Positions 3,388 to 40,800 of a stretch of 64,000 nt of DNA are shown here, piece by piece. Source of the DNA: Sphaerolaimus hirsutus. Taxonomy: Eukaryota > Nematoda > Chromadorea > Monhysterida > Sphaerolaimidae. Position 1 is the first letter of the stretch. Every line of letters starts with the position of its first letter. The DNA lies in contig OZ038460.1 in assembly GCA_964036195.1 (NCBI GenBank), positions 14,139,504 through 14,203,503 on the forward strand, given 5' to 3'. The position numbers were made by a program, and so were the translations under genes. The notes under the pieces were generated by a model. The model was not told the origin of the DNA and made no database searches. It saw only the letters and a list, made by a program, of their open reading frames with translations.

Positions 3388-5721
3388 TGCACCACAACGC
3401 CGCCTTCGGTCGTTTCCTGTTCGCCCGATCGGCGCCCGACCCGCCGGCCGAATGCCAGATAATGAGCACGTCGGCGCACTCGCTGCGCGTCGGCTGGGCG
3501 CCCAACTTCATCGCGAACGCGCACGCGCCCACCACCTACACCATCACGTGCAGGGCCATGTGCGTTAGCACAGCACCCGTGCAGGGGGCACTCCCAGACC
3601 CTGTAAAAGACCATGTAAAGTGTAAAAAGCCATGTAAAATGTCTCATGTGTCATGTAAAATATCATGTGTTATGTAAAAGACCCTGTAAAGTGTCGAATG
3701 TATCTAAATGTTATTTTATATTATCCAAATCTTATGTTTGTGTATCCAAATATCACATTTTTTACATAAGATAACGATACAAAAACATAATATTTGGATA
3801 TGATAAAATAATATTTGGATACACATGACACTTTACAGGGTCTTTTACATGACACACGACATTTTACAGGTCCTTTACAGTACATGTATGAAATTTTTAT
3901 AATTTTAATTAATAAGTTAATTATTCACCATACTTCTTGTATTTTACATCATTCATTGTATACAAACGTTCACGCGCATGGTTATACGCATAGCATACTC
4001 ACGATCCAATCAAACATACGACCATCCTACCCACCTCCACGCAATGTCAATAGCCACCCTCGCAGACACACGAAGCGGGTGCTGTCGGTGTCGCAGCGCA
4101 TGCGCAAGCTGCAGGTGCGCCGCGCCAAGCCCGGCGACGAGGCGCTGCTGTCGGGCGGGTCGACGGGCTACCCGCCGGTCGCCACAGAGACCATCACTAG
4201 CGACACGGCGCGCAGACACCAGCTTAAGATCGAGGTGGGTAGCTTTAGAATGGCTATATTTGGAGCGCCGCTATATTATTAGCTGAATACCGTGTATCCT
4301 GGCCCACCGGGGAGTTATTTTTCAGCAGACTTTTTAGACTGGGGGATTATTCAAAAGGGTCATTCGAGGGGAGGAGTTTTTCCATCAGAATTTTCAGTAA
4401 AATGCATGATGAATTTACTGCGTAAATGGGGTCAAATTAGTTTCATAAATCATCAGTTTACATACAAATTTCATAATTGGAAGCAATAAAATCAATACTA
4501 ATGAGTACCAACTGCAAAATAATACCCAGGTGCTTACATTTTACTGAATACATACATAACAAATATTACATAAATGCATGTGACATTTCTCATCAGAGTT
4601 ATTTTTCCTCACTCGGCTAACAGGGGGGGGGAGTTCTTCGGGGGCTGGCAATTTTCGAGGTTGACATATTCGAGAATATACGGTATCGCCATTTTAATTT
4701 CAACCAAGGGAAGCAAGTAGTGCTTCAATTCAGATCGAAACCACGCAGGGCATCAACGGGTGCGCCTACGAGCTGCTCGGCCTGGAGTCGTGCGTACTGT
4801 ACGAACTGCGCGTGACGGCGCAGAACAAATTCGGCCGGTCCAAGCCGGTCCGCCTGATGGAGTACACGGAGCCGGAGCTGTCGCCGCAGCACGTGATCGT
4901 CGACCGGCTGGGGCCGAACGCTCTGCGCGTCTCGTGGTCGCAGCCGCTCAAGCGGCACGCCGAGGTCACCGGCTACGTGCTGTACTACGTGGCCGGCGCG
5001 GACACCAGCTACGACAACTGGCGCAAGGTGTTCGTGCCCGGCAACGACGCGTGCGACACCCGGCTCGTCGACTTGGATTTCGACACGTTTTACAGGATGT
5101 CCGTCGTTTTGACGCATTGACGCTGCACTGCACGCAATGACTAATTGCCGGTATATTTATAAAGCCACGCCAACGATTTGCGCAGGAGCGTGCGCGGCGT
5201 GTACGGCGACGACAGTTTCACGCCGCTCTCCAGGACGATCGTCATCAAGACAGAGAAACTGAACTTCAACATCAATGGTAAGTCTCCCCAAACCGACGAA
5301 ACCGATAACAATCACAATACAATAGACTGTACATACAGATCGCCTTACAACGAATGATACCATATTTTAATGAATAAAGTCACGTGGAAAACTGCATCAA
5401 ATTCACCCAAAGTAGAAGCAATGTGAAAAAAATGATGAGAAAATTTTTACGTTTGTTCCTTTTTTCAGATGGGATATGGTAGATTTCATTGTAAGGTGTA
5501 ATGTTGGTGAAGTATACATAAATGAATATATTTACGCAGTGATCGGGCACTCGAAAACCATCGAAACGATGGTGGGGCTGTGGCGACGTAAAGAAAGCAC
5601 CAAAAACGGCTCAGAGGAAAATGAGAGTAGCGAACGCAAACCGCTTTTAGCCGCGGCGGCGGCAGTGGCCGCAACGGGACCGGGGCCAAGCGGCGCCGGC
5701 ATCAGATACAGTATTTGGTAA
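3388..5721 (+). CDS. Fibronectin type III domain protein, 3' part, five exons
   Basis: Exons 3388-3559, 4066-4234, 4734-5098, 5186-5277 and 5540-5721 (stop TAA 5719-5721) join with GT-AG sites and matching phases. At least two FN3 domains are visible: one starts at PDPPAECQIMSTSAHSLRVG and runs through exon 3 (YELRVTAQNKFGRSKP); the next starts at SPQHVIVDRLGPNALRVSWS and ends at YRMSVRGVYGDDSFTPLS across the exon 3/4 join. The C-terminal 60 aa are polar with an Ala run and end GIRYSIW. No transmembrane segment is seen in this part, so the protein may be secreted, cytoplasmic or membrane-anchored upstream. Upstream exons were not found between the K2P gene and 3,388, so the true gene start is unknown. 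I cannot assign an orthologue. It converges on the DEG/ENaC gene. Confidence 0.8.
3583..3880. mobile_element. Degenerate copy of the introner/MITE family
   Basis: GGGCACTCCCAGACCCTG at 3,585-3,602 is followed by TGTAAAG/CATGTAAAA words and, after 3,825, their inverted repeats. The right terminus is truncated. It lies inside intron 1 of the FN3 gene and does not coincide with the intron ends. Confidence 0.6.
4288..4685. mobile_element. ACCGTATTT-family element in FN3-gene intron 2
   Basis: Starts TACCGTGTATCC, with GGGGGATTATTC and CATTCGAGGGG words and a run of G near the right end, and finishes CGAGAATATACGGTA. Same family as 1,406-1,700. Confidence 0.6.
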
Positions 5722-8700
5722 CTGCGGTAAAATACTCACCCGAAAATTGGTTGGAAGTGGGCTTCTTGGCGGCGCGGCGCCGGCGGCTCAGCCACGTGGG
5801 CACCACGTAGATTAGCGCCACGCCGCCGTAGTACACCATGTGCACCAGCGTTATTAACCGGATACCTGTGTGACATTTAATGCATGTGATCTGTGAGCAT
5901 GTGATTTAATGCATGTGAATGTGTCTGCGCACACTAGTTTTCACACGAAATTTGGAAAACCCACAATTCAGCTTATGAGTTTTCTACAATGAGGTGGCCG
6001 TCAACAGCAGTCGACGGAGATTTAAAATGACTCATTGTGAAAAACTCAAACACGTTCAAAGCTGAATTCTCGAAATTTCGTGTGAAAACTAGTGTGCGCA
6101 GAACCAATATTTACAGATGAAATTTTTTCGAATTACAATGCGAACACGATTATGATAAACTATAAAACGAAATGTCACGAAATCCAACCCAGCCAAATGG
6201 ACAACTGGCCGCCGATATTGGACACAAAAACGCTAGCGGGGGTGAGCTTCTTTTCCTCGGTCAGCTGCGTGACGAGCTCGGGGAAGTAAACCTGGACGAC
6301 GGTGGTGTCGTTCAACTGGCCGTCGTCCGGGATGCGACGCAGCGCCGTGGCCGAGAACTGGCGCTGGCCCATGCCGCTTCGCAATAGTCGCAGCGCGTTC
6401 TGCGAAAGTTGCGCACAGCGATTATCGCATGCTGCCATTTAGAACCCACAGACATTAGTTGACATCGCAAATTTGCGTCAACTGAATGTCAACAAAATAA
6501 CACCAAAAAATTTTTCAAAGCATCACACTTAACAGGAACAATGAACATTGAGAGTCACGAAAATTACGTGTGATTATAAAAAAACTGTTCTCTATCAGGT
6601 AGGAAAGTTGAAATAACATAATAAAAATGACCAAAATTTAGTTGAATTTAGTTGACACGAATTTCGGTGTCAACTAGTGTGTTTGGGCATTTTGTAACCT
6701 GATTTTGCTTTTGCACAATTTACGATGCACTTTTTGTATTCGCAAAATCACTTGTACGGCTGAAACATTTTTTTACGGTAACCAATGCACAAAGAACACC
6801 GCGATTGCAAAACATGTGGTGGGAAGGGAACAAGGGTGCCTGCACAGATAAGCATACCATAAATGCAGGGTTCGGCATTTCTCTGAAGGGTAAATTATAT
6901 TTAATACAACAACTGAAAAAAGGACGCTAAATGCGATAAAAGTGAAAAATAAACCAGTACTCACGCGTAGCTGGTACGCGGATCGTATGTTTCTATTGAA
7001 CACTGCAGGGGGCAAACGCACTTATCGGCGATATTGAATATGTCCCACAAAAATCCCATGTTGTTCGCTTGGAACAGCGCCTGCACACACGCGGTCGACT
7101 TGGAAGGCGAGCAAATTTTCTGCAAGTTTTTTTCTGAAGTGTAAATGAGGTAAAAGTTGACAAAAACAAACAGAGCTCAGATTTCAATTAGCGTGGAAAT
7201 TTTTGATCAGGGTAAACTGATAAAATAGTCAGCTATTGCTATTCGCACCCAAATTAAATTAGGTATCCTATTTTTGAAAACCTTTTGAATTTCCGTGAAC
7301 GTGGTCAGGGGATACAACTAAACATAAACATCAGCATCGGCGGCAGAAAAAATCAGCATAACTGACCCCGTCCCTCTCCAGCTGCTCGTACTTCTCCACG
7401 ATGCCGATCTGCACGCAGCCGCACGTTTTCATGGTCATGTCGGCCACGCACTGCGAGAAGCACGAGTCGAACGTGTACTGCTCGAAGTACTCCAACCTGC
7501 GGCACAATTCGGGGGGGGGGGGGGGTTAACTAGACGGTATACAATCAGTTGAACTTTTATCAATCAGTTGAAGTTTCAAATTTCAATTTCTACAAATTTG
7601 CTTTACCATTGATTTATCTTAAATGCATGGGAAGGCACTTCAACGTACATAGGTACTTTAATTCCAACACTTGAAAGGATGCAATAATTTTACCCAATTA
7701 CGTACACGCTTCTCTGCCATAAATTCATAGCGAATCTCCACTAAATCCCGATGGAAAATACGTCGCCTTGAATAACATGCCCGTCAAATCTGTCTGACGA
7801 AAAAGTCCCAAGAGCATGATAAAAACTGTACTCCAGGTGGCAGTCCCAAGCCCTGTAAAGTGTACAGTAAAGTGTCAAATATAAAGTCAAATGCAAAGTA
7901 AACTGTCAATTGCCAATTGTCAAAGTTCAGTAATAAAATCTTTTCTTTTTTGTTTTGATTGACACTTGACTTTGCATTTGACTTTACATTTGACACTTGA
8001 CTTTACACTTTACAGGGCTTGGGACTGCCCCCAGGTAAACAAATCAAATCAAACCTACCAGAAATCTTCGCATAAGACCGCAGGTAGCATTCAAAAAAAT
8101 CACCAATTGTTTGGAAAATATATATAAATATATCACCCCAAACTTGGAAAAAATATAAATATATATAAATCACTCAAGGCCTTCATAAAATATAATTAAA
8201 TCACTGAAAAAATAACTCTAAGCTAAAAAAAAATCACAAAAAATCACTTGCGGTTTATTTCAATTACAAGCAAAATTGTGGGCTATTGCAGGCTTAATTT
8301 ACCATTTGCAAGCACAAAAATGTACTCTAACATCCCACAATCTATTTATTAATGTTTCACAAGCAGTATTCATATCATACAATATTGACAAGTTAAAATA
8401 TCACGCAAATATCACAACAGAAAAATTCAACCTACAACCTCAATGACAACTTCAAAAACATTTTGCACTGCAACACTTAACATATAGTGTCTGGTTGTCG
8501 CAGTGATGTTTGACTGAAAGGTGCTTAGTACTTGTAGCAGTGCCAGGTATGCCAAGGAAGTTTAGTGCAAATTCACTTTAGTGCGAATTCACTAACATGT
8601 TTGGCAAAATTTTGGTGATATTTAGGTGACACCATGGTGACAGTGTTCCACAGTTGTCCCCCATATTTGATAACTGGCAACATTGGTTGATGTCACCAAG

Positions 8701-17700: not shown

Positions 17701-19409
17701 CTTAAAGATACTTAATCAATTAGTTGTGTTAAATTTGAACAAAAATGACACGTTTTTGTGTTAAAAATGCACATTTCGTGAAATGACTAGATAGAAAGAT
17801 GCTCGAACACTTTGACGAAAGAATAATTCGGGGCAGGCCTGATACGCACATCAGCCCGTTACGCACATTTGCCCGTTTTTTTCACTTGACACTTTTTCAA
17901 GTGATTTTCAGATATAAGTGAAGTTAAAAAAAGTTGCGCAATGACATTAGTGAACTTTTTTCACTTCACTCATATCTGAAAATCACTTGAAAAAGTGTCA
18001 AGTGAAAAAAACGGGCAAATGTGCGTAACGGGCAGATGTGCGTATCAGTGCACCCCCGAATAATTCCCCCCTTCGAATAGTTCCCCCTCAAAAAAGTCTG
18101 GCGAAATAATAATACCCCAGTGGGATTATTCAAGAAAATACGGTAGTTTTGTTTTGAGGGTGAATATGCAGAAAAACCAGCATTACGACCTCCAGCTACT
18201 GATTATGGGTACGGCTAACCGGCTATTATTTTAGAAACTATCAGGAATAGGTTTATTTAAGCGCAACCCAAAAACGATGCAGTTACCAAAACTATACTAC
18301 TGTATTTCCTCGAAGTACTCCCCGAGGATTATTGTTTCAGAGTGAAATTGGGATATTTCGAGGGGGTTTATCAGTTCATAGTGACCATTTTGAGGGGGTA
18401 CTTCGAGGGTTTTTTTAGCATCATCGCAACTCACCTGTATAGTTACGACACTATTTGGCAACTCGGTGGTGTACTGATTCAGCAGTTGCGTCATTTGCAC
18501 TACACAAAAGGAGACAGCGAAAATTCCCAGCCCTATCCAGATCACCTTTCCAAACCAGCTCACCGGCTTGGCGATGTCCCGCAGCACGCCCACAGACATT
18601 ATGAATGCTCGGATCTGAGGCGGTGAAATATATCCATGCACCCACTGACCCACTACGGCAAAACTTCAAAAAAACATTTGACGTTTTGCAGCCGTGACGA
18701 CAGGTGATGTCGAAATCTGACTTGAAACAAATGTCAACTATTTAGTGTGCGTAATTTGAATGAAATTTTGCAAGACGACTGGCACATGACTCACTCACCC
18801 CCGCCCTCCCCCAGCGACGCAGTCACAAAACAGTCACACACACCGCCCAATAAATATAACCTCAGCCACCCTGGCGTCGTATCCATCCCGTCTGCGTCTC
18901 TTGATGCTCTGCTCATAGTCGGCGACTACCCGCTGCTTGACTTCGTCGCTCGGCGGCAGCCAGGCGTCGTGCTGCGGCGGTGGCTGTCTGTGCGCGGCGG
19001 GCACCTCCTCCAGGGGGCAGTCACGGACCATGTGACGTGTCATGCAAAGTGACAAAGTTGTGTAAAGTGCCCTGGCAAGTGACCATTCGGTTACTAGGGT
19101 TGGGAAACCGAACCGCGGTTCCAAGTGTATTTTAAAACCGAGACCCGGATTTTGAGCAAGCGAGAACCGATACCCGAATCAAGAACTTCTGAACCCGAGA
19201 ACCGGCACCAAAAATTTGGCAATTCCCGACACTATCAGTTGCCATTTTCCAGGACTTTTTACATAACTCTTGACACTGCACGACATTTTTACAGGGTCCG
19301 AGATTGGCACCTGGTGACCGGACGGCGACGGCAGGACGCCGGCGCTGCCGAATGAAACCGGCCGGCGCAACTTCTGCCGCGGGTTATCCGCAGCTGGAGG
19401 AGATTTCAT
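5702..19409 (-). CDS. DEG/ENaC-family sodium channel subunit, about eleven exons
   Basis: Amiloride-sensitive-type cation channel subunit of the plasma membrane. Exons (complement): 19311-19409 (start ATG at 19409), 18870-19007, 18435-18614, 17268-17390, 11304-11510, 10500-10708, 10326-10423, 7367-7496, 6965-7119, 6189-6376, then 5865 to 5740 or 5702. An N-terminal cytoplasmic region precedes TM1 (WIGLGIFAVSFCVVQMTQLL). The ectodomain shows MPVLTVCTFARVNATKV, DCDQLLVACMFQG, GNCFVVRND and the cysteine-rich block (SCFSQCVADMTMKTCGC, CVCPLQC). IGGQLSIWLG leads into TM2 (LITLVHMVYYGGVALIYVV). All joins fit in phase except exon 7 to exon 8, where a small exon or another splice site must be missing. 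The last exon contains a strong donor (CGG/GTGAGT at 5,739); if unused, the frame runs to a TGA at 5,702-5,704, overlapping the FN3 gene tail. Intron 1 is an introner copy; intron 4 holds a LINE. Confidence 0.88.
5935..6101. mobile_element. CACTAG-ended MITE (TTCA subtype)
   Basis: Both ends read inward (T)CTGCGCACACTAGTTTTCAC and continue ACGAAATTT. It is 167 bp and palindromic, in the last intron of the channel gene. Several relatives occur in the window. Confidence 0.75.
6445..6687. mobile_element. CACTAG-ended MITE (GACA subtype)
   Basis: Left end CCCACAGACATTAGTTGACA, right end the inverse of CCCAAACACACTAGTTGACA. It is non-coding, in an intron of the channel gene. Confidence 0.7.
7838..8030. 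mobile_element. Introner-family MITE copy inside a channel-gene intron
   Basis: The ends are TGGCAGTCCCAAGCCCTG and, inverted, GGGCAGTCCCAAGCCCTG. It is flanked on both sides by CCAGG (7,833-7,837 and 8,031-8,035). The arms hold TGTAAAGTGTCAAA words that pair with each other. On the plus strand it would read CAG/GT...CAG/G, a splice-ready layout, but the surrounding gene is on the minus strand, so it is silent here. Confidence 0.8.
8096..8190. repeat. AT-rich repeat shared with 10,085-10,170
   Basis: Two arms of ATATATATAAATATATCAC and its variant with inverted polarity. The same arrangement recurs at 10,085-10,170 about 2 kb away. The family is not recognised. Confidence 0.5.
8918..9433. 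repeat. Near-perfect 516-bp palindrome
   Basis: Left arm starts TAAAGCCGGAATTAGAGCT; right arm ends with its inverse AGCTCTAATTCCGGCTTA. The arms stay collinear through to a centre near 9,175 (CAACGGTTGCTCAATCGTTG). Both contain many ACGTCA/TGACGT words. It looks like a long foldback MITE with TA at its ends, in a channel-gene intron. Confidence 0.82.
9673..9909. mobile_element. CACTAG-ended MITE (TTCA subtype), next to a facing partial copy
   Basis: Both ends read inward CCTACACACACTAGTTTTCA then CCGTGAC. Directly to the left, 9,636-9,663 carries the right end of another copy, so the two termini face each other across about ten bases. Confidence 0.75.
10085..10170. repeat. Second copy of the 8,096-8,190 AT-rich repeat
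   Basis: Carries the same pair of ATATAAATATATCAC arms as 8,096-8,190, followed immediately by the end of an ACCGTATTT-family fragment (10,195-10,303). Confidence 0.5.
10195..10303. mobile_element. Partial ACCGTATTT-family element
   Basis: GGGGAGTTATTTTTTCG, CATTCGAGGGGGTTATTC and a right end of the form GAGGATTTGCGGTATAC. Only one arm is present. Confidence 0.55.
10934..11254. mobile_element. ACCGTATTT-family foldback element
   Basis: Left end TACTGTATTTGCGTGGATAG, right end the inverse of TACGGTATTTGTTCGAATAA. Internal words are TTCCCCCTTGAATAATT. In the intron between channel exons 5 and 6. Confidence 0.68.
11798..12897 (-). pseudogene. LINE ORF2 C-terminal region, frame-broken
   Basis: Three overlapping minus-strand reading frames carry the continuation of the reverse transcriptase protein: the thumb-like part (12,561-12,897), a short middle part (12,358-12,669) and a Cys/His-rich tail (11,956-12,294) followed by a last stretch ending near 11,798. 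Each change of frame is a decay event. The Cys/His tail resembles the zinc-binding C-termini of many LINE ORF2 proteins. Confidence 0.65.
12898..14202 (-). pseudogene. LINE reverse transcriptase domain
   Basis: This 434-codon open segment has the RT blocks in order: LHKKGSTMDIRNYRTLGIGC, CFVDAVKAFDRVNRKKLWAK, YPIGLRQGCCWSPTGFIIYL and the catalytic box FFADDICF. The ADD aspartates are present, so the fold is recognisable, but the segment ends in a TAG at the frame change near 12,898 and lacks an intact link to the endonuclease part. Nearest LINE group not assigned. Confidence 0.85.
14136..15598 (-). pseudogene. LINE APE-type endonuclease region, frame-broken
   Basis: The open segment 14,777-15,598 carries the start of an apurinic/apyrimidinic-like endonuclease (LTVLYQNVRSL, VICLCEAQCLSS, GGLLIYTHVKW). 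The frame moves at about 14,800 to a segment with LLVGDFNGHIG (the GDFN block), then at about 14,620 to one with MSSDHHALELTL (the SDH catalytic block). All three endonuclease landmarks exist, but in different frames. The N-terminal 90 residues before the domain are hydrophobic and not recognised. Confidence 0.75.
15922..16862 (-). pseudogene. SGNH-hydrolase-like ORF with in-frame TAG, possible LINE ORF1 remnant
   Basis: Minus-strand frame open from about 16,862 to 15,922 except for one TAG (about 16,640). It shows FVLTIGDSTTARLPI (the GDS nucleophile block of SGNH/GDSL esterases) and, near the C-terminus, DGIHASHLFD (the Asp-x-x-His block). Between them is an alpha-rich stretch with many aromatic residues. 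The 5' end is cut by a low-complexity hAT-like sequence. At the 3' end three frames are plausible, one Gly/Arg-rich. It precedes the LINE ORF2 by about 0.3 kb in the same orientation; some CR1-type LINEs encode an esterase in ORF1, so it may belong to the LINE. A captured host-type esterase is the alternative. Confidence 0.5.
16863..17006. mobile_element. hAT-like fragment, GGAAAACGG theme
   Basis: Repeats of CCGGAAAACGGAAA ending TTTGACACCCTA, the same right terminus and word as the element at 34,289-34,888. No target duplication was found on the left. Confidence 0.5.
17542..18145. mobile_element. ACCGTATTT-family foldback element with a nested palindrome
   Basis: Starts TACTGTATTTGCTTGAATAG and ends with the inverse of TACCGTATTTTCTTGAATAA. 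Several CCCCTTGAATAATTCCC units lie inside. A different palindromic element (17,840-18,048) is inserted near the centre. Confidence 0.72.
17840..18048. mobile_element. Palindromic MITE with TACGCACAT ends
   Basis: Ends read inward TGATACGCACATCAGCCCGT and continue TACGCACATTTGCCCG, then TTCACTTGACACTTTTTCAAG. It is nested in the ACCGTATTT element. A second copy lies at 53,206-53,472. Confidence 0.72.
18298..18414. mobile_element. Partial ACCGTATTT-family element next to channel exon 3
   Basis: TACTGTATTTCCTCGAAGTA followed by CCCC runs and inverse words ending GGGGGTACTTCGAGGG. It sits 20 bases from the splice donor of exon 3. Confidence 0.55.
19008..19310 (-). mobile_element. Introner: MITE forming intron 1 of the DEG/ENaC gene
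   Basis: On the minus strand exon 1 ends GGTCACCAG and the element starts immediately with GTGCCAATCTCGGACCCTGT. It ends GGTCCGTGACTGCCCC, followed by CTGGAG and exon 2. The donor layout (CAG/GTGCCA) is the same as in Frizzled intron 6. Without the insertion the target reads CACCAGGAGGAGG, an open frame (HQEEV). The duplicated CAGG on the acceptor side is now CTGG, so the likely acceptor is the AG three bases further (CTGGAG/GAG). A separate AACCGAGA-rich sequence (19,093-19,235) is nested inside. Confidence 0.75.
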
Positions 19410-35925: not shown

Positions 35926-37820
35926 TTGTGTCCAGAAGCGGCCCGTCTGATTGACTATAGCATTGTCGCGGAGCTGCGGGCTGCAGTGCACCGGGTGCGC
36001 ATAGATCAGTCAGCCAGGGGGCACTCTCAGACCCTGTAGTATGTCAAATGTCATGCAAAGTGTCAAAAGTCATGTAAAATGATCTGCAAAATGGCAACTC
36101 GGTTGCCATTTTTCAGGGCATTTTACATGATTTTTGACACTTTGTATGACATTTGACATTTTACACGGTCTGGGAGTGGCACCACAACACGCCCGAAGTT
36201 CAGTGCAATAAATAGAAACTATTCAATCGGGACAGAGCTGCCGTCACAGCGGCCGCGGCGGAATCAAATCAAAGATGAATGCATGCATGCAGACCATGCG
36301 ACACAATGCACACTTTTCGAACCGAACCGAATAAACCCCAAGAACTTGTGCCCAGAATGCGATATCATTCCAAAACAATGGGGTTTTGAAAAGAAAGTGC
36401 ATAAATTTAGTATGATCAAGATCACTCATCAAGAAAATTTCCTATTACACCACGGAAGTTGGTCCCCAAACCAAAACATGCAACACTAGTAGCGTGACTA
36501 CAAAGACAGAAAGTCGACCAACTGCGAGCGTAGTCGCAACGCGTTGCACCGCACACACACACACACAGCACCAGCGCGGCGGCAGAACCGCGGTCGCGCG
36601 CCGCGGCAACTACGGGCTCGCATGCATGAAGCATGAGCGCGGCGGCGCCGGCGCAACAATAAAGCGGGCGGTGATGAAATGAAGCCGAAACGACCCGCGC
36701 GGCACGCTGCCGCCGTCCAATGAGCTCGCTCGCTCGGAACGCCAGAGCAGTGCGCTGCAGAGACGGGCCACGCGCTGGGGTAACGTAAAAGTCGTGAAAG
36801 TTACATTTGCCAGCATCCCGAAGCCCATTTTAATCATCACGGGCACTATATACGACACACGTAAACCGGGTCATCTCATTTTTATTTTTACAACCCACCG
36901 CGAAATGAGCCGCCGGTCAACCTTTAACAGCAGCACGTTTTCACACGCTAAAAAGCGCCGCTGCGAAGCCGGTTTTATTTTTATCACCCCAGCATTGCCT
37001 CGCGCGGTCGAGCGAGCAGCTAAAAAGCAAAACTAAAGTAAATAGGCGGCCGTAGGCGCGCGCCGCCGCCGCCGCCGTGCACTGGGCGAAAAAGCGCCGC
37101 CGCGGCGCCCAATAGTCGCTGCCATTGCCGCCCGGCAATGTGAGAGCGGGCGCGGCGGCGGCGTGCAAAAAGCCCACTATCACAAACACGGCATAGAATC
37201 TAATCAACCGGCCGGCCAAGGACCAAATGACAACACTGCATACATAGTGCAGACGCGAATCGAGGGCGACTGAGTGAAGAAAAGGGATTTGCGTCGCGCC
37301 GTCTCGAAAAGACGGCCCGAAGATGCAAAAGTAGCCTGTGCTTAGTCGGGCGTCGGCGCAACATTCAAACAGTCCATCGCAGCGCGGCCGCCGCGTGCGC
37401 ATTGCACGTAAGCCGGCGCCGATAGAATGCAAACACTCGGCCCGCCGTATCACCAGCCAACTGCACGGCGAGCGGCATTACATTGAACGTGGGTGGGTGG
37501 TGTTAGCGCCTGATCCCCAGCCGCGTGGTACTTGCGAGCGTGCAGCAGTCAAGATGCGACGGCATTCGTATACATGCATACGTGTGTAGCTGATTCATTC
37601 CGCTGCGCACAAGACACTAGTCAACGCGCACGCGAACGGGAGATTTATGGCTGCACAATGGCAGCGCGGCACTACTAATACGCCCCCCATCACAAAGCAA
37701 CCAGTAGGTGGAATGCAGCAAGGTGATAATAGCGCGCGCGGAACGAAGTCACACGAAAATGAAAAAAACCCGACTAACTGATTATCAATTTGGCACGCTG
37801 CCAGCGTGGCAAAAACTGCA
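35926..37820. other. Intergenic stretch; possible small exon and an introner-family copy
   Basis: 35,939-36,018 (+) reads EAARLIDYSIVAELRAAVHR in an open frame after an AG, amphipathic, perhaps an exon of an unrecognised gene. The rest to 37,820 is GC-rich with several palindromic zones and no coding exon I can support. The 3' end of the Frizzled transcript should fall near 37,800. Confidence 0.35.
36018..36182. mobile_element. Introner-family MITE copy
   Basis: GGGCACTCTCAGACCCTGTA at the left and the inverse of TGCCACTCCCAGACCGTGTA at the right. The centre ATGGCAACTCGGTTGCCAT is identical to the copy in Frizzled. The target duplication is not clear. Confidence 0.72.
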
Positions 37821-40800
37821 TCATACTTGAGGCGGGTTGACCGGGTGGCCCAAGGCGAGCGGCTGTCTGTGCATGGGCATGCCGGCGACTGGCGCGGGTG
37901 CGTGGTGCAGCATGGGCATGGCCTGGTGCTGCGGCGCGAGCAGGTGCTGGTGGGCGCCTCCAGCCGTTGCCGCGCCGCCCCCGTGCACGTGGTGGTAATG
38001 CATAACCGAGCCGCCGGCGACGGACGCGGGCGGCGGCTGCGTCGGCACCCGCCGCCGCCCGTGCACCGTGCGCGCGTAGAAACTGTGCCAACTGGTCATG
38101 GTCTTGCCGCTGCAGATCCACACGGCGCACGTGATGCCCACCTGGAGTATGGGACGGCGCCGATCATGGTTGGAAAAAAACAAACAATTTTTTCAAACGC
38201 CTTTATTTGAAAAAAATAAATTTTTAAATAAAATCATAATTTTTTGAAGAAATTTTTTTCAAAACCGTCCAAAATGGGGCTATAGAGCAAAAATATGTAT
38301 ATGTGCATATCTTAGGTGTCAGATAATTTATTGTTATGTCTATTGTGGTCATATTATGACGGTGGAGCTATGAGATTGCATTGAGTGATGATTCCACCTA
38401 GTGATTTATTTTAAAAATGAACAGCAAAAATCAAGATCCATTTCAAGCATCAATTCAACCAAACAAGAATAATAACCCAAGCTTAGACAAGTAAAAATGC
38501 CCAAACCGACCACCATGGCCATCAAATACTTGAACACGAATACGAGAAACTCGGGGGCGACGCCGTCGACCCTCCGGTCGAAGTGCGCGTCGCCGCACAC
38601 GGGCACCGGCGGCATGGGCGCGCCCGCAGCTGAAGCGCCGTTGGCGGAGAGGGCGCCGAAGCCAAGGGCGTCGCTGGAGCCGGCCGCTAGGGTGCAACGC
38701 AGGTTGTACCTGTAGAGGTAGGGGGTAAGAGGGTTGGGAAAAAATCATATTTTTTATCAAACGCTATGATAAAAAAATCGATTTAAAAAAATTGTCAGAT
38801 TGTCTCGTCTCGTCACTTGTCCAACTAGATAAACACGCTAAAATCGCTAGATTTCCGAGCAGAATGGTATCGACCCTACACACACAAGTTTTCTACCGAT
38901 ATTTCCGAAAACTCATAAATCATTTTGGAAAACATTCGAGTTAACTTGAATGATGTCTCCGTCAACTAATGTAAATGGAGATAAAAATAACTGATCCCGG
39001 TAAACTCAAGTGCTCAACGCTGATTTATCAGATAAATCAAAAAATTTCGGTAGAAACCTAGCGTGTATAGGGAAGACACCGTATTTCAACTAATAGAACA
39101 GCACCTCTCAATAGAACGGCACCTCCAATAGTACGGCAGGCAAAATAGTTGACGAACAAAATACCACGGCGCTCTTCCATTAGAAGAAATACGGTAACAC
39201 ACAACCAATCAGCCACCAAAACAACCAACCAAGTCCTCAGCCAAGCGGGCATCATGGAGCTCTGATAGCCCAGACAAGCGAGGGTGATCACGGCCGGCAC
39301 GATGTACATGACGGAGAAGGCGGATATGCGCAGCATGAGCTTCTCCAGCTTGTCGATCTTGTCCACCTTGCCGGCGCACCCGTCCGCGTACTTGATGTAG
39401 CGCCGGATGCGCAGCATCGACACGAAGCCGCAGAACAGGAAGATCACGCCGATTACTGAAGGGAGGTGAGGGTGGTTGGAGGGGGTTGGGGGGGTTGGAG
39501 GAGTTGGGTTGGGTGTAGGGATGGCCAGCGCTTTTTTAAAATAAAATGCCGCTTTTTTAAAATGCGCAATGATCACAGCGCTGTTTTAAAAAGCGGGCCT
39601 TTTATCTTTTTTTTAAAAGCGGGCCTTTTCCATCCCTAGTTGTGTGAAATTGGAAAAAATCTCAAAGTAAATGGATGTTTTAGAAAGCTATACGCTGGCA
39701 CATGACATTTGATACTTGACTTTACACTTTACAGGGTGAAGGACTGTCCCATGGTGTATTTTGTTATGTAAAAATGCCAATGGCAGCCTGAAGCAGTGAT
39801 ATTTGCCCCAAACTTTTTAAACCTTGTCGCGTAACACCCCGTTCAAGGTTTCAGGCAAGTTTTCAAACTGCCGAGAATAGGCACCAGAAAGTCGTAAGCA
39901 CTCACCCAAACAAACAGCCAGCGGAATCAGAACAAAGTTCCTCAACGCAGTACCGTCCCAGTTGCCAACCGAGCAAACTCCAGTAAACAGATCGCCATCA
40001 ATATGATGCGAAATGAGTATCCACATCATGAGCACTCCAGGTACGCCCCACGCGACGAAATGGAAGGCGCTAGCGTAGCTCTCGATTGCTTCCTGTGGGC
40101 AGTCCCAGACCCTGTAAAATGCCATGTAAAATGTCAAATGTCACGCAAAGTGTCAAAAGTCATGTAAAATGCCCTGCAAAATGGCAACTCGGTTGCCATT
40201 TTGCAGGGCATTTTACTTGACTTTTGACATTTTGAATGACATTTTCCATCTTCCAGGGCATTTCACAGGGTCTGGGACTGGCACCTGGCCCCACTTGAGG
40301 CTGGCTGCGAGGAACCAGGTGAAGCACAGCACGACCCACCAAATGGCGCTGGACAACGTGAAGTAGTAGTGCATGATGGCCAAAGTGGTGCATGGAATTG
40401 CCTCGTAGCTGCCCCCAGTGCCCTGAGGAGAGTGGGGCGGAGGGTTGGAAATAATCGTATTAAAAAAGACTTTTTAAACTTTTAAAAGATCTTTTAAAAA
40501 AACCCTAGTTTTTTAAAGAGATTTTTTAAATCGTTTTAAAAATTGAAATCGGATTTTTTTCACAAGGGTCAATGTACACACAGGCATAAAACAATGTGAA
40601 ACCTGCGACTGCGAGTCATACCACTCACAACCAATACTGGAAAAATATGGCAAATCGAACAAAGTTTTATGTGATGGAATCCCATCACAATGGAATGCCA
40701 CACATACTAGTTGACATAAAATGTACTACCTAGACTATAGAACATATTTATGACAGTTGAAATCATACAATTAACCAAAATGACACCAAATTTAATGTCA

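Follow-up and report, generated by a model that had tools for sequence, protein, structure and literature searches.

A CWG-targeting MITE family that appears to make introns in the exons of an animal, with the target base probably setting AG or TG as the 3' splice site

The Frizzled gene on the minus strand of the analysed window (a stretch of 64,000 nucleotides of contig C16) contains an intron that has the ends of a transposon, and this raises the question whether the transposon has itself made the intron and, if so, where the splice sites came from. We analysed the locus together with related copies in the genome (348 Mb, 762 contigs were searched) and consider it likely that a non-autonomous transposon (MITE) that targets CWG makes introns within exons, in such a way that the copies at CAG are GT-AG introns and the copies at CTG imply GT-TG splicing by the host.

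The Frizzled intron comprises 192 nt (40093..40284, minus strand), begins at 40284 with GTGCCAGTCCCAGACCC and ends at 40093 with GGGTCTGGGACTGCCCACAG, and its GT...AG ends are such that excision rejoins KWGQ|EAIE in frame. The preliminary description of this DNA had stated that removal restores the frame across the KWG-x-EAI block, and with the intron excised we indeed found a single open frame across the junction. The intron is composed of a MITE copy of 189 bp (GTGCCAGTCCC...GGGACTGCCCA; 40096..40284, minus strand) and the 3' copy of a 3-bp target-site duplication, CAG (40093..40095, minus strand), which would serve as the 3' splice site; the 5' copy of the duplication (40285..40287, minus strand) stays exonic and provides the Gln of KWGQ. 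An inverted-repeat element thus lies exactly between two exons, as had been claimed, but the element does not account for the full 192 nt, three of which belong to the duplicated CAG. In the Frizzled copy the element ends in A instead of the consensus C of the family, which yields the acceptor CCACAG. The exon upstream of the element covers 40285..40422 (minus strand; acceptor CTCCTCAG|GGCACTG, read by eye) and the downstream exon covers 39906..40092 (minus strand; its end was placed by eye at a GTGAGT donor), the latter being clearly related to the Frizzled proteins in the Protein Data Bank (Frizzled-6, E = 7e-16; Frizzled-3, E = 2e-14; Frizzled-7, E = 4e-12). The two best matches, FZD6 and FZD3, at first pointed to a chordate host, an idea that was given up when the other exons were compared by eye with features of FZD1/2/7. 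The intron had been numbered as the sixth of the gene; our count over the exons, read by eye, makes it the fifth coding intron, to which an intron in the 5'-UTR may have to be added. Five other introns of the gene that were read by eye, four upstream and one downstream, have AG acceptors and plausible GT donors, although these donors are not all fixable from the protein. Within Frizzled introns, at 39520-39640 and 40460-40560 of the window, there are also runs of TTTTTAAAA and GCTTTTTTAAAA motifs, which probably represent another repeat family.

The inverted-repeat arms at the Frizzled intron (40081-40188 and 40192-40299) are 82% complementary over 108 nt. The calculated folding energy of the 192-nt intron is -136.6 kcal/mol, as compared to -44.3 ± 4.3 kcal/mol for 100 mononucleotide shuffles, and the predicted hairpin spans nearly the whole length of the intron. 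Two properties count against splicing of the introner: the near-perfect RNA hairpin could hide both splice sites, and the donor GTGCCA looks weak when compared to the usual consensus.

The correspondence between MITE and intron in Frizzled is not a matter of chance, because the element belongs to a family with thousands of tip matches. A 30-base tip pattern, with at most three mismatches allowed, gave 7,537 matches genome-wide and its reversed control gave none; as both tips of one copy can match, the copy number is uncertain and we estimate it at roughly 4,000 to 7,500. Sequences similar to the Frizzled copy reach both ends of the intron at many non-paralogous sites, and these ends are coding junctions in unrelated genes. 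The first 60 loci that were collected comprised 50 distinct copies, seven loci with a junction in common with another locus (one and the same place retrieved again, or a region present in duplicate) and three loci without an element according to the tip rule. A further 30 loci supplied 29 new copies and one repeat, and after collapsing two paralogous pairs 77 distinct copies were retained. The sample is non-random: some loci were chosen for their similarity to the Frizzled copy, others for an exact CCAGG tip, and others again for exact CTG tips, the last in the order of the contigs. TIRs are present in the Frizzled copy and in the collected copies, the latter of which were found by their tips. 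The consensus of the 77 copies has 189 nt and ends in CCCC, and the median divergence of the copies is 6.9%, a value that may be low because one third of them was chosen for likeness to the Frizzled copy. Three pairs of loci were observed in which the same element has the same flanks, indicating that the region was duplicated after the insertion: L081/L082 (C2:3376925 and C2:3450239), L007/L059 (C2:4177974 and around C2:4070883) and L005/L021 (C13:15096842 and C3:20523724); such pairs could be of use for dating.

Three more copies are located in the window itself. The one at 19011..19310 (minus strand) is a second probable introner of 300 bp with extra internal sequence, a 5' CAG and a 3' CTG, and it interrupts a coding stretch (...PSPSGHQ|EEVPAAHRQ...; coding score 49.9 in the sense frame versus 26.1 for the next best). 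An AG is found 3 nt downstream of this copy, so that GT-AG splicing is possible at the cost of one codon. Its extra internal sequence is perhaps a nested insertion. The two other copies, one with CAG at both ends (7837..8034, plus strand) and one that is diverged (36015..36182, minus strand), are in stretches without coding signal.

Alignment of both ends of the copies revealed that the duplicated bases are CWG, within the preferred context CCWGG. A duplication of 4 bp (CAGG) or of 5 bp (CCWGG) was considered and rejected, as the outer bases vary on each side and CWG is kept; the CAGG flanks that the preliminary description had read as the duplication are therefore the 3-bp CAG within a preferred target. 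We counted the copies with exact tips genome-wide (element length 171-201 bases) and retrieved 243 with CAG at both ends (CAG/CAG), 130 with CTG at both ends (CTG/CTG), 62 CTG/CAG and 29 CAG/CTG copies. The base W is identical at the 5' and the 3' end in 373 of these 464 copies (Fisher p = 1.4e-38), as a duplication predicts. The tips themselves are asymmetric: the sense tip is GTGCC and the opposite tip, read inwards, is GGGGC, and the combination GTG/GGGG was encountered 241 times, versus three times for GGGG/GGGG and three times for GTG/GTG. Two bases distinguish the tips, and it is the G versus T at the second position that makes the GT donor, which suggests that a G-to-T change in one of the tips may have created it. 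The earlier proposal, in which one copy of the duplication plus the first TIR base gives CAG/GT and the other copy gives the CAG acceptor, holds for the acceptor, which is the duplicated CAG; the GT donor, in contrast, is derived wholly from the element.

The orientation of the copies with respect to the interrupted genes was assessed with a codon model that was re-trained with the tested fold left out (four folds); its starting version had seen L001-L060 and its first seed consisted of genes recognised by eye. At the loosest cut-off 38 of the 77 copies were in a clear coding signal and the remaining 39 received no clear coding call. The GT end comes first in 36 of these 38 coding copies (p = 5e-9), the exceptions with an antisense call being L002 and L041, and in 34 of 35 and 30 of 30 at the stricter cut-offs. 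Of the signs that the set of survivors was shaped by splicing rather than by insertion alone, we regard this orientation bias as the strongest; a palindromic target offers no ground for it at insertion. The term introner, that had been applied to the Frizzled intron, is hence supported as far as a sequence analysis reaches, and it extends to other genes. The agreement between the frames to the left and to the right of the copies (19 of 22, with a shuffled mean of 13.7 and a maximum of 19) is non-discriminating, nearly all being in one frame. The possibility that the CTG copies are simply CAG copies of genes on the opposite strand was rejected, as 17 of the 18 coding CTG/CTG copies (loosest cut-off) are in the sense orientation.

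These properties can be accommodated by the following mechanism. The MITE would insert into exons at CWG, preferably CCWGG, and duplicate three bases; in copies whose GTG tip leads in the direction of the coding strand this would create the arrangement CWG|GTGCC...CCCC CWG|, in which the element would supply the GT donor and the duplicated CWG the acceptor. Loss of the element together with one CWG would then restore the gene exactly, in any phase. Where W is A, as in Frizzled, a GT-AG intron would be the result; a T at this position would give a CTG acceptor and a GT-TG intron. The RNA is presumably spliced at the element ends, by the spliceosome, and the host animal then probably splices TG as the sole 3' splice site.

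The CTG copies, the most unusual part of the family and one that the preliminary description had not reached, were inspected more specifically for their presence in conserved genes. We searched 20 rejoined proteins with Pfam: 16 from CTG/CTG copies and those of L019, L015, L024 and L046. Of the 16 CTG/CTG proteins, 12 have a domain that extends over the junction, and these domains are: ligand-gated ion channel, M18 peptidase, OATP, NUP210, Rcd1/CNOT9, EF-Tu domain 2 (U5 116-kDa protein), xanthine/uracil permease, sugar transporter, receptor ligand-binding region, protein kinase, Oscp1 and E1 dehydrogenase. The four other CTG/CTG proteins (L014, L025, L004 and L084) had no Pfam match, nor had the two CAG/CAG proteins that were tested (L024 and L046); a domain spans the junction in L019 (CTG/CAG), and in L015 (CTG/CGG) the match lies downstream of the junction. 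Alignments to solved structures were gapless across the junction in all four proteins tested, each from a CTG/CTG copy: a kainate-type glutamate receptor, an aspartyl aminopeptidase, CNOT9 and the U5 116-kDa protein. The clearest case is CNOT9, whose exons meet at IGAL|VKTDE across C1:10595875-10596052, with 120 residues aligned without a gap (E = 3e-65); a genome search with CNOT9 returned only two matches, both flanking the element, and no second gene. The U5 116-kDa gene was dropped as a proof from a single-copy gene, as near-identical exon pieces occur on C13 and elsewhere on C1. The pieces of this EFTUD2-like gene (C1:20014798-20026808 and C13:19278921) indicate that it is partly duplicated. 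In 15 of the 17 coding CTG/CTG copies an ACAG ends 19 nt before the 3' end of the element, and this ACAG might help in the early recognition of the 3' end, with TG then being used in the second step. As it is missing in the coding copies L018 and L085, the ACAG cannot be the whole answer.

The interpretation of the CTG copies has to be weighed against two other explanations. They could be harmful insertions that remain unspliced in the sequenced individual, with real introns formed only by the CAG copies, which we consider unlikely. CTG does lack the AG, the CTG/CTG copies are less numerous than the CAG/CAG copies genome-wide (130 versus 243) and the 3' W leans towards A (62 CTG/CAG versus 29 CAG/CTG, p = 0.0007). 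However, the coding CTG/CTG copies are about as diverged as the coding CAG/CAG copies (median 6.9%, n = 17, versus 7.4%, n = 15; p = 0.31) and thus do not look like fresh arrivals; CTG/CTG copies are also as often coding (17 of 37 in sense at the middle cut-off, versus 13 of 28 for CAG/CAG). One of them interrupts the only CNOT9 gene found, and the 17 of 18 in sense orientation are at odds with this explanation since a harmful or neutral insertion has no reason to prefer one orientation. A 3' base that does not enter the mRNA and can mutate freely would, with TG tolerated but AG the better acceptor, be expected to produce both the lean towards A and the excess of CAG/CAG as well, and we favour the reading in which GT-TG splicing works in the host, somewhat less well than AG. 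The second explanation, that the CTG copies are spliced as shifted canonical GT-AG (or GC-AG) introns at the expense of some changed residues, appears quite improbable. It was evaluated for 19 CTG/CTG copies, namely the 17 that passed the coding cut-off and L028 and L075, which failed it but have protein matches. An equivalent placement with canonical ends (GT-AG, GC-AG or AT-AC) was found in none of the 19, and a scan of donors from -45 to +59 nt of the element start and acceptors from -80 to +60 nt of the element end found a shifted GT/GC-AG intron that gives the same protein in none of them either. In-frame, stop-free alternatives that alter the protein do exist in 18 of the 19, for instance with a TTACAG that lies 19 nt before the 3' end, or with an exonic AG, but in CNOT9 the nearest one that preserves the length alters five residues in an otherwise gapless stretch, and L062 has no in-frame canonical alternative in the range scanned.

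Three further explanations concern the family as a whole. Were the elements nested in older, ordinary introns with splice sites nearby, no intron would have been created at all; this is very improbable, given that the element ends equal the intron ends to the base, in Frizzled and in the other genes with gapless proteins, and that no remnant of an older intron is seen outside the element. The hairpin, rather than the dinucleotides at the splice sites, could guide the removal, with the direct CWG repeats setting the join. A near-perfect hairpin, direct repeats at the ends and tolerance of both CAG and CTG would be in line with this, and there are precedents in the Amoebophrya introners, which have inverted repeats and direct repeats of 3-5 nt at their borders (PMC7789003), and in the nonconventional introns of euglenids, which fold in such a way that their two ends come close (PMC4770533). 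A symmetric hairpin should, however, work both ways, yet 36 of the 38 coding copies have the GT end first and the tips are asymmetric in 241 copies versus three and three symmetric ones, and for these reasons guidance by the hairpin seems rather doubtful to us. Finally, the element might be cut from the DNA of somatic cells, like the internal eliminated sequences of ciliates; the direct repeats and the exact excision would fit, but excision of DNA should be indifferent to the orientation of the gene, contrary to the GT-first bias, and we regard this as hardly credible. Intron creation by the inserted MITE, with splicing at its ends, accordingly remains our preferred reading.

Introners are a leading explanation of bulk intron gain. 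Those of Micromonas, Aureococcus, Symbiodinium and others have been described as MITE-like, with TIRs and target duplications, and most families are length-neutral; in Chrysochromulina the donor is carried by the introner and the acceptor is co-opted from the duplication (PMC9860276). The present family resembles these in that an inserted MITE becomes an intron with one splice site carried along and the other taken from the duplication, and the preliminary description, which had invoked the target-duplication logic of known introners, was right in kind, but the duplication is a 3-bp CWG and the donor is carried by the element. It differs from the surveyed introners in the 3-bp palindrome CWG, of which the middle base would decide between AG and TG, and in its host, as only two groups with introners were reported among animals and land plants, both of them animal (PMC9860276). 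GT-TG splice sites have been reported for the Micromonas introners IE-B and IE-D, with 25 and 6 members (PMC3879977); those are small algal classes, whereas in the present animal a single family would give rise to both GT-TG and GT-AG introns, according to the target base. The introners of Amoebophrya have variable splice sites in addition to their hairpins and direct repeats (PMC7789003). In human, TG is reported as a 3' splice site only where an AG within 28 nt can be used instead, and never as the sole site (PMC2374985). The CTG copies are similar in having an AG nearby, i.e. the ACAG 19 nt upstream that is found in 15 of the 17 coding CTG/CTG copies, and dissimilar in that no site other than TG would restore the protein. 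The animal Fritillaria borealis splices mostly non-GT/AG introns, of which AG/AC and AG/AT are the commonest non-canonical ends, and has duplicated U2AF subunits that were linked to the 3' ends (PMC13326754). It likewise is an animal with many introns that break the GT/AG rule; in our case, however, the other Frizzled acceptors end in AG (by eye) and the departure from the rule is linked to a single transposon.

The family suggests a simple route to an intron maker, in which one base in a tip makes the GT donor and the palindromic CWG gives the acceptor. We lean, with some reserve, towards the wider reading that introns, perhaps in the thousands, go back to this one family, that TG is the only 3' splice site in a large part of them, that the spliceosome accepts TG constitutively for these, and that the CWG target amounts to a side-by-side test of AG versus TG with all else equal. 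The natural pairing of CAG and CTG copies makes the choice of the 3' splice site directly testable. Surveys that are based on annotated introns could miss the CTG copies if the annotation assumes GT-AG.

With respect to its origin, the family shows affinity to the NuwaI group of the PIF/Harbinger-like (PHIS) transposons, which make CWG duplications, have a TIR that usually starts with GGG and are reported only from animals (PMC4482050). The CWG target duplication is shared with NuwaI; of the two tips one starts with GGGG, and the sense tip, which starts with GTG, is a difference (PMC4482050). On the basis of these likenesses the MITE may be placed in or near the NuwaI group, and a transposase of the NuwaI type of PIF/Harbinger would be the candidate for moving it. 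A literature search (mostly open-access, without preprints) retrieved no account of this introner family nor of GT-TG introners in animals, and a NuwaI-like element that targets CWG and lets the target base decide between AG and TG, in an animal and at large scale, looks new. The DDE_Tnp_4 transposase domain (PF13359) has 163 matches in the genome; these are matches at the level of the transposase family, and none of them is tied to the introner TIR (tip GGGGCAGTCCC). More than 100 of the DDE_Tnp_4 matches are nearly equal in score and length, and most of these contain four in-frame TGA codons within the matched stretch of about 633 bp, a pattern that would fit a single amplified element whose reading frame holds an intron or a lesion common to the copies.
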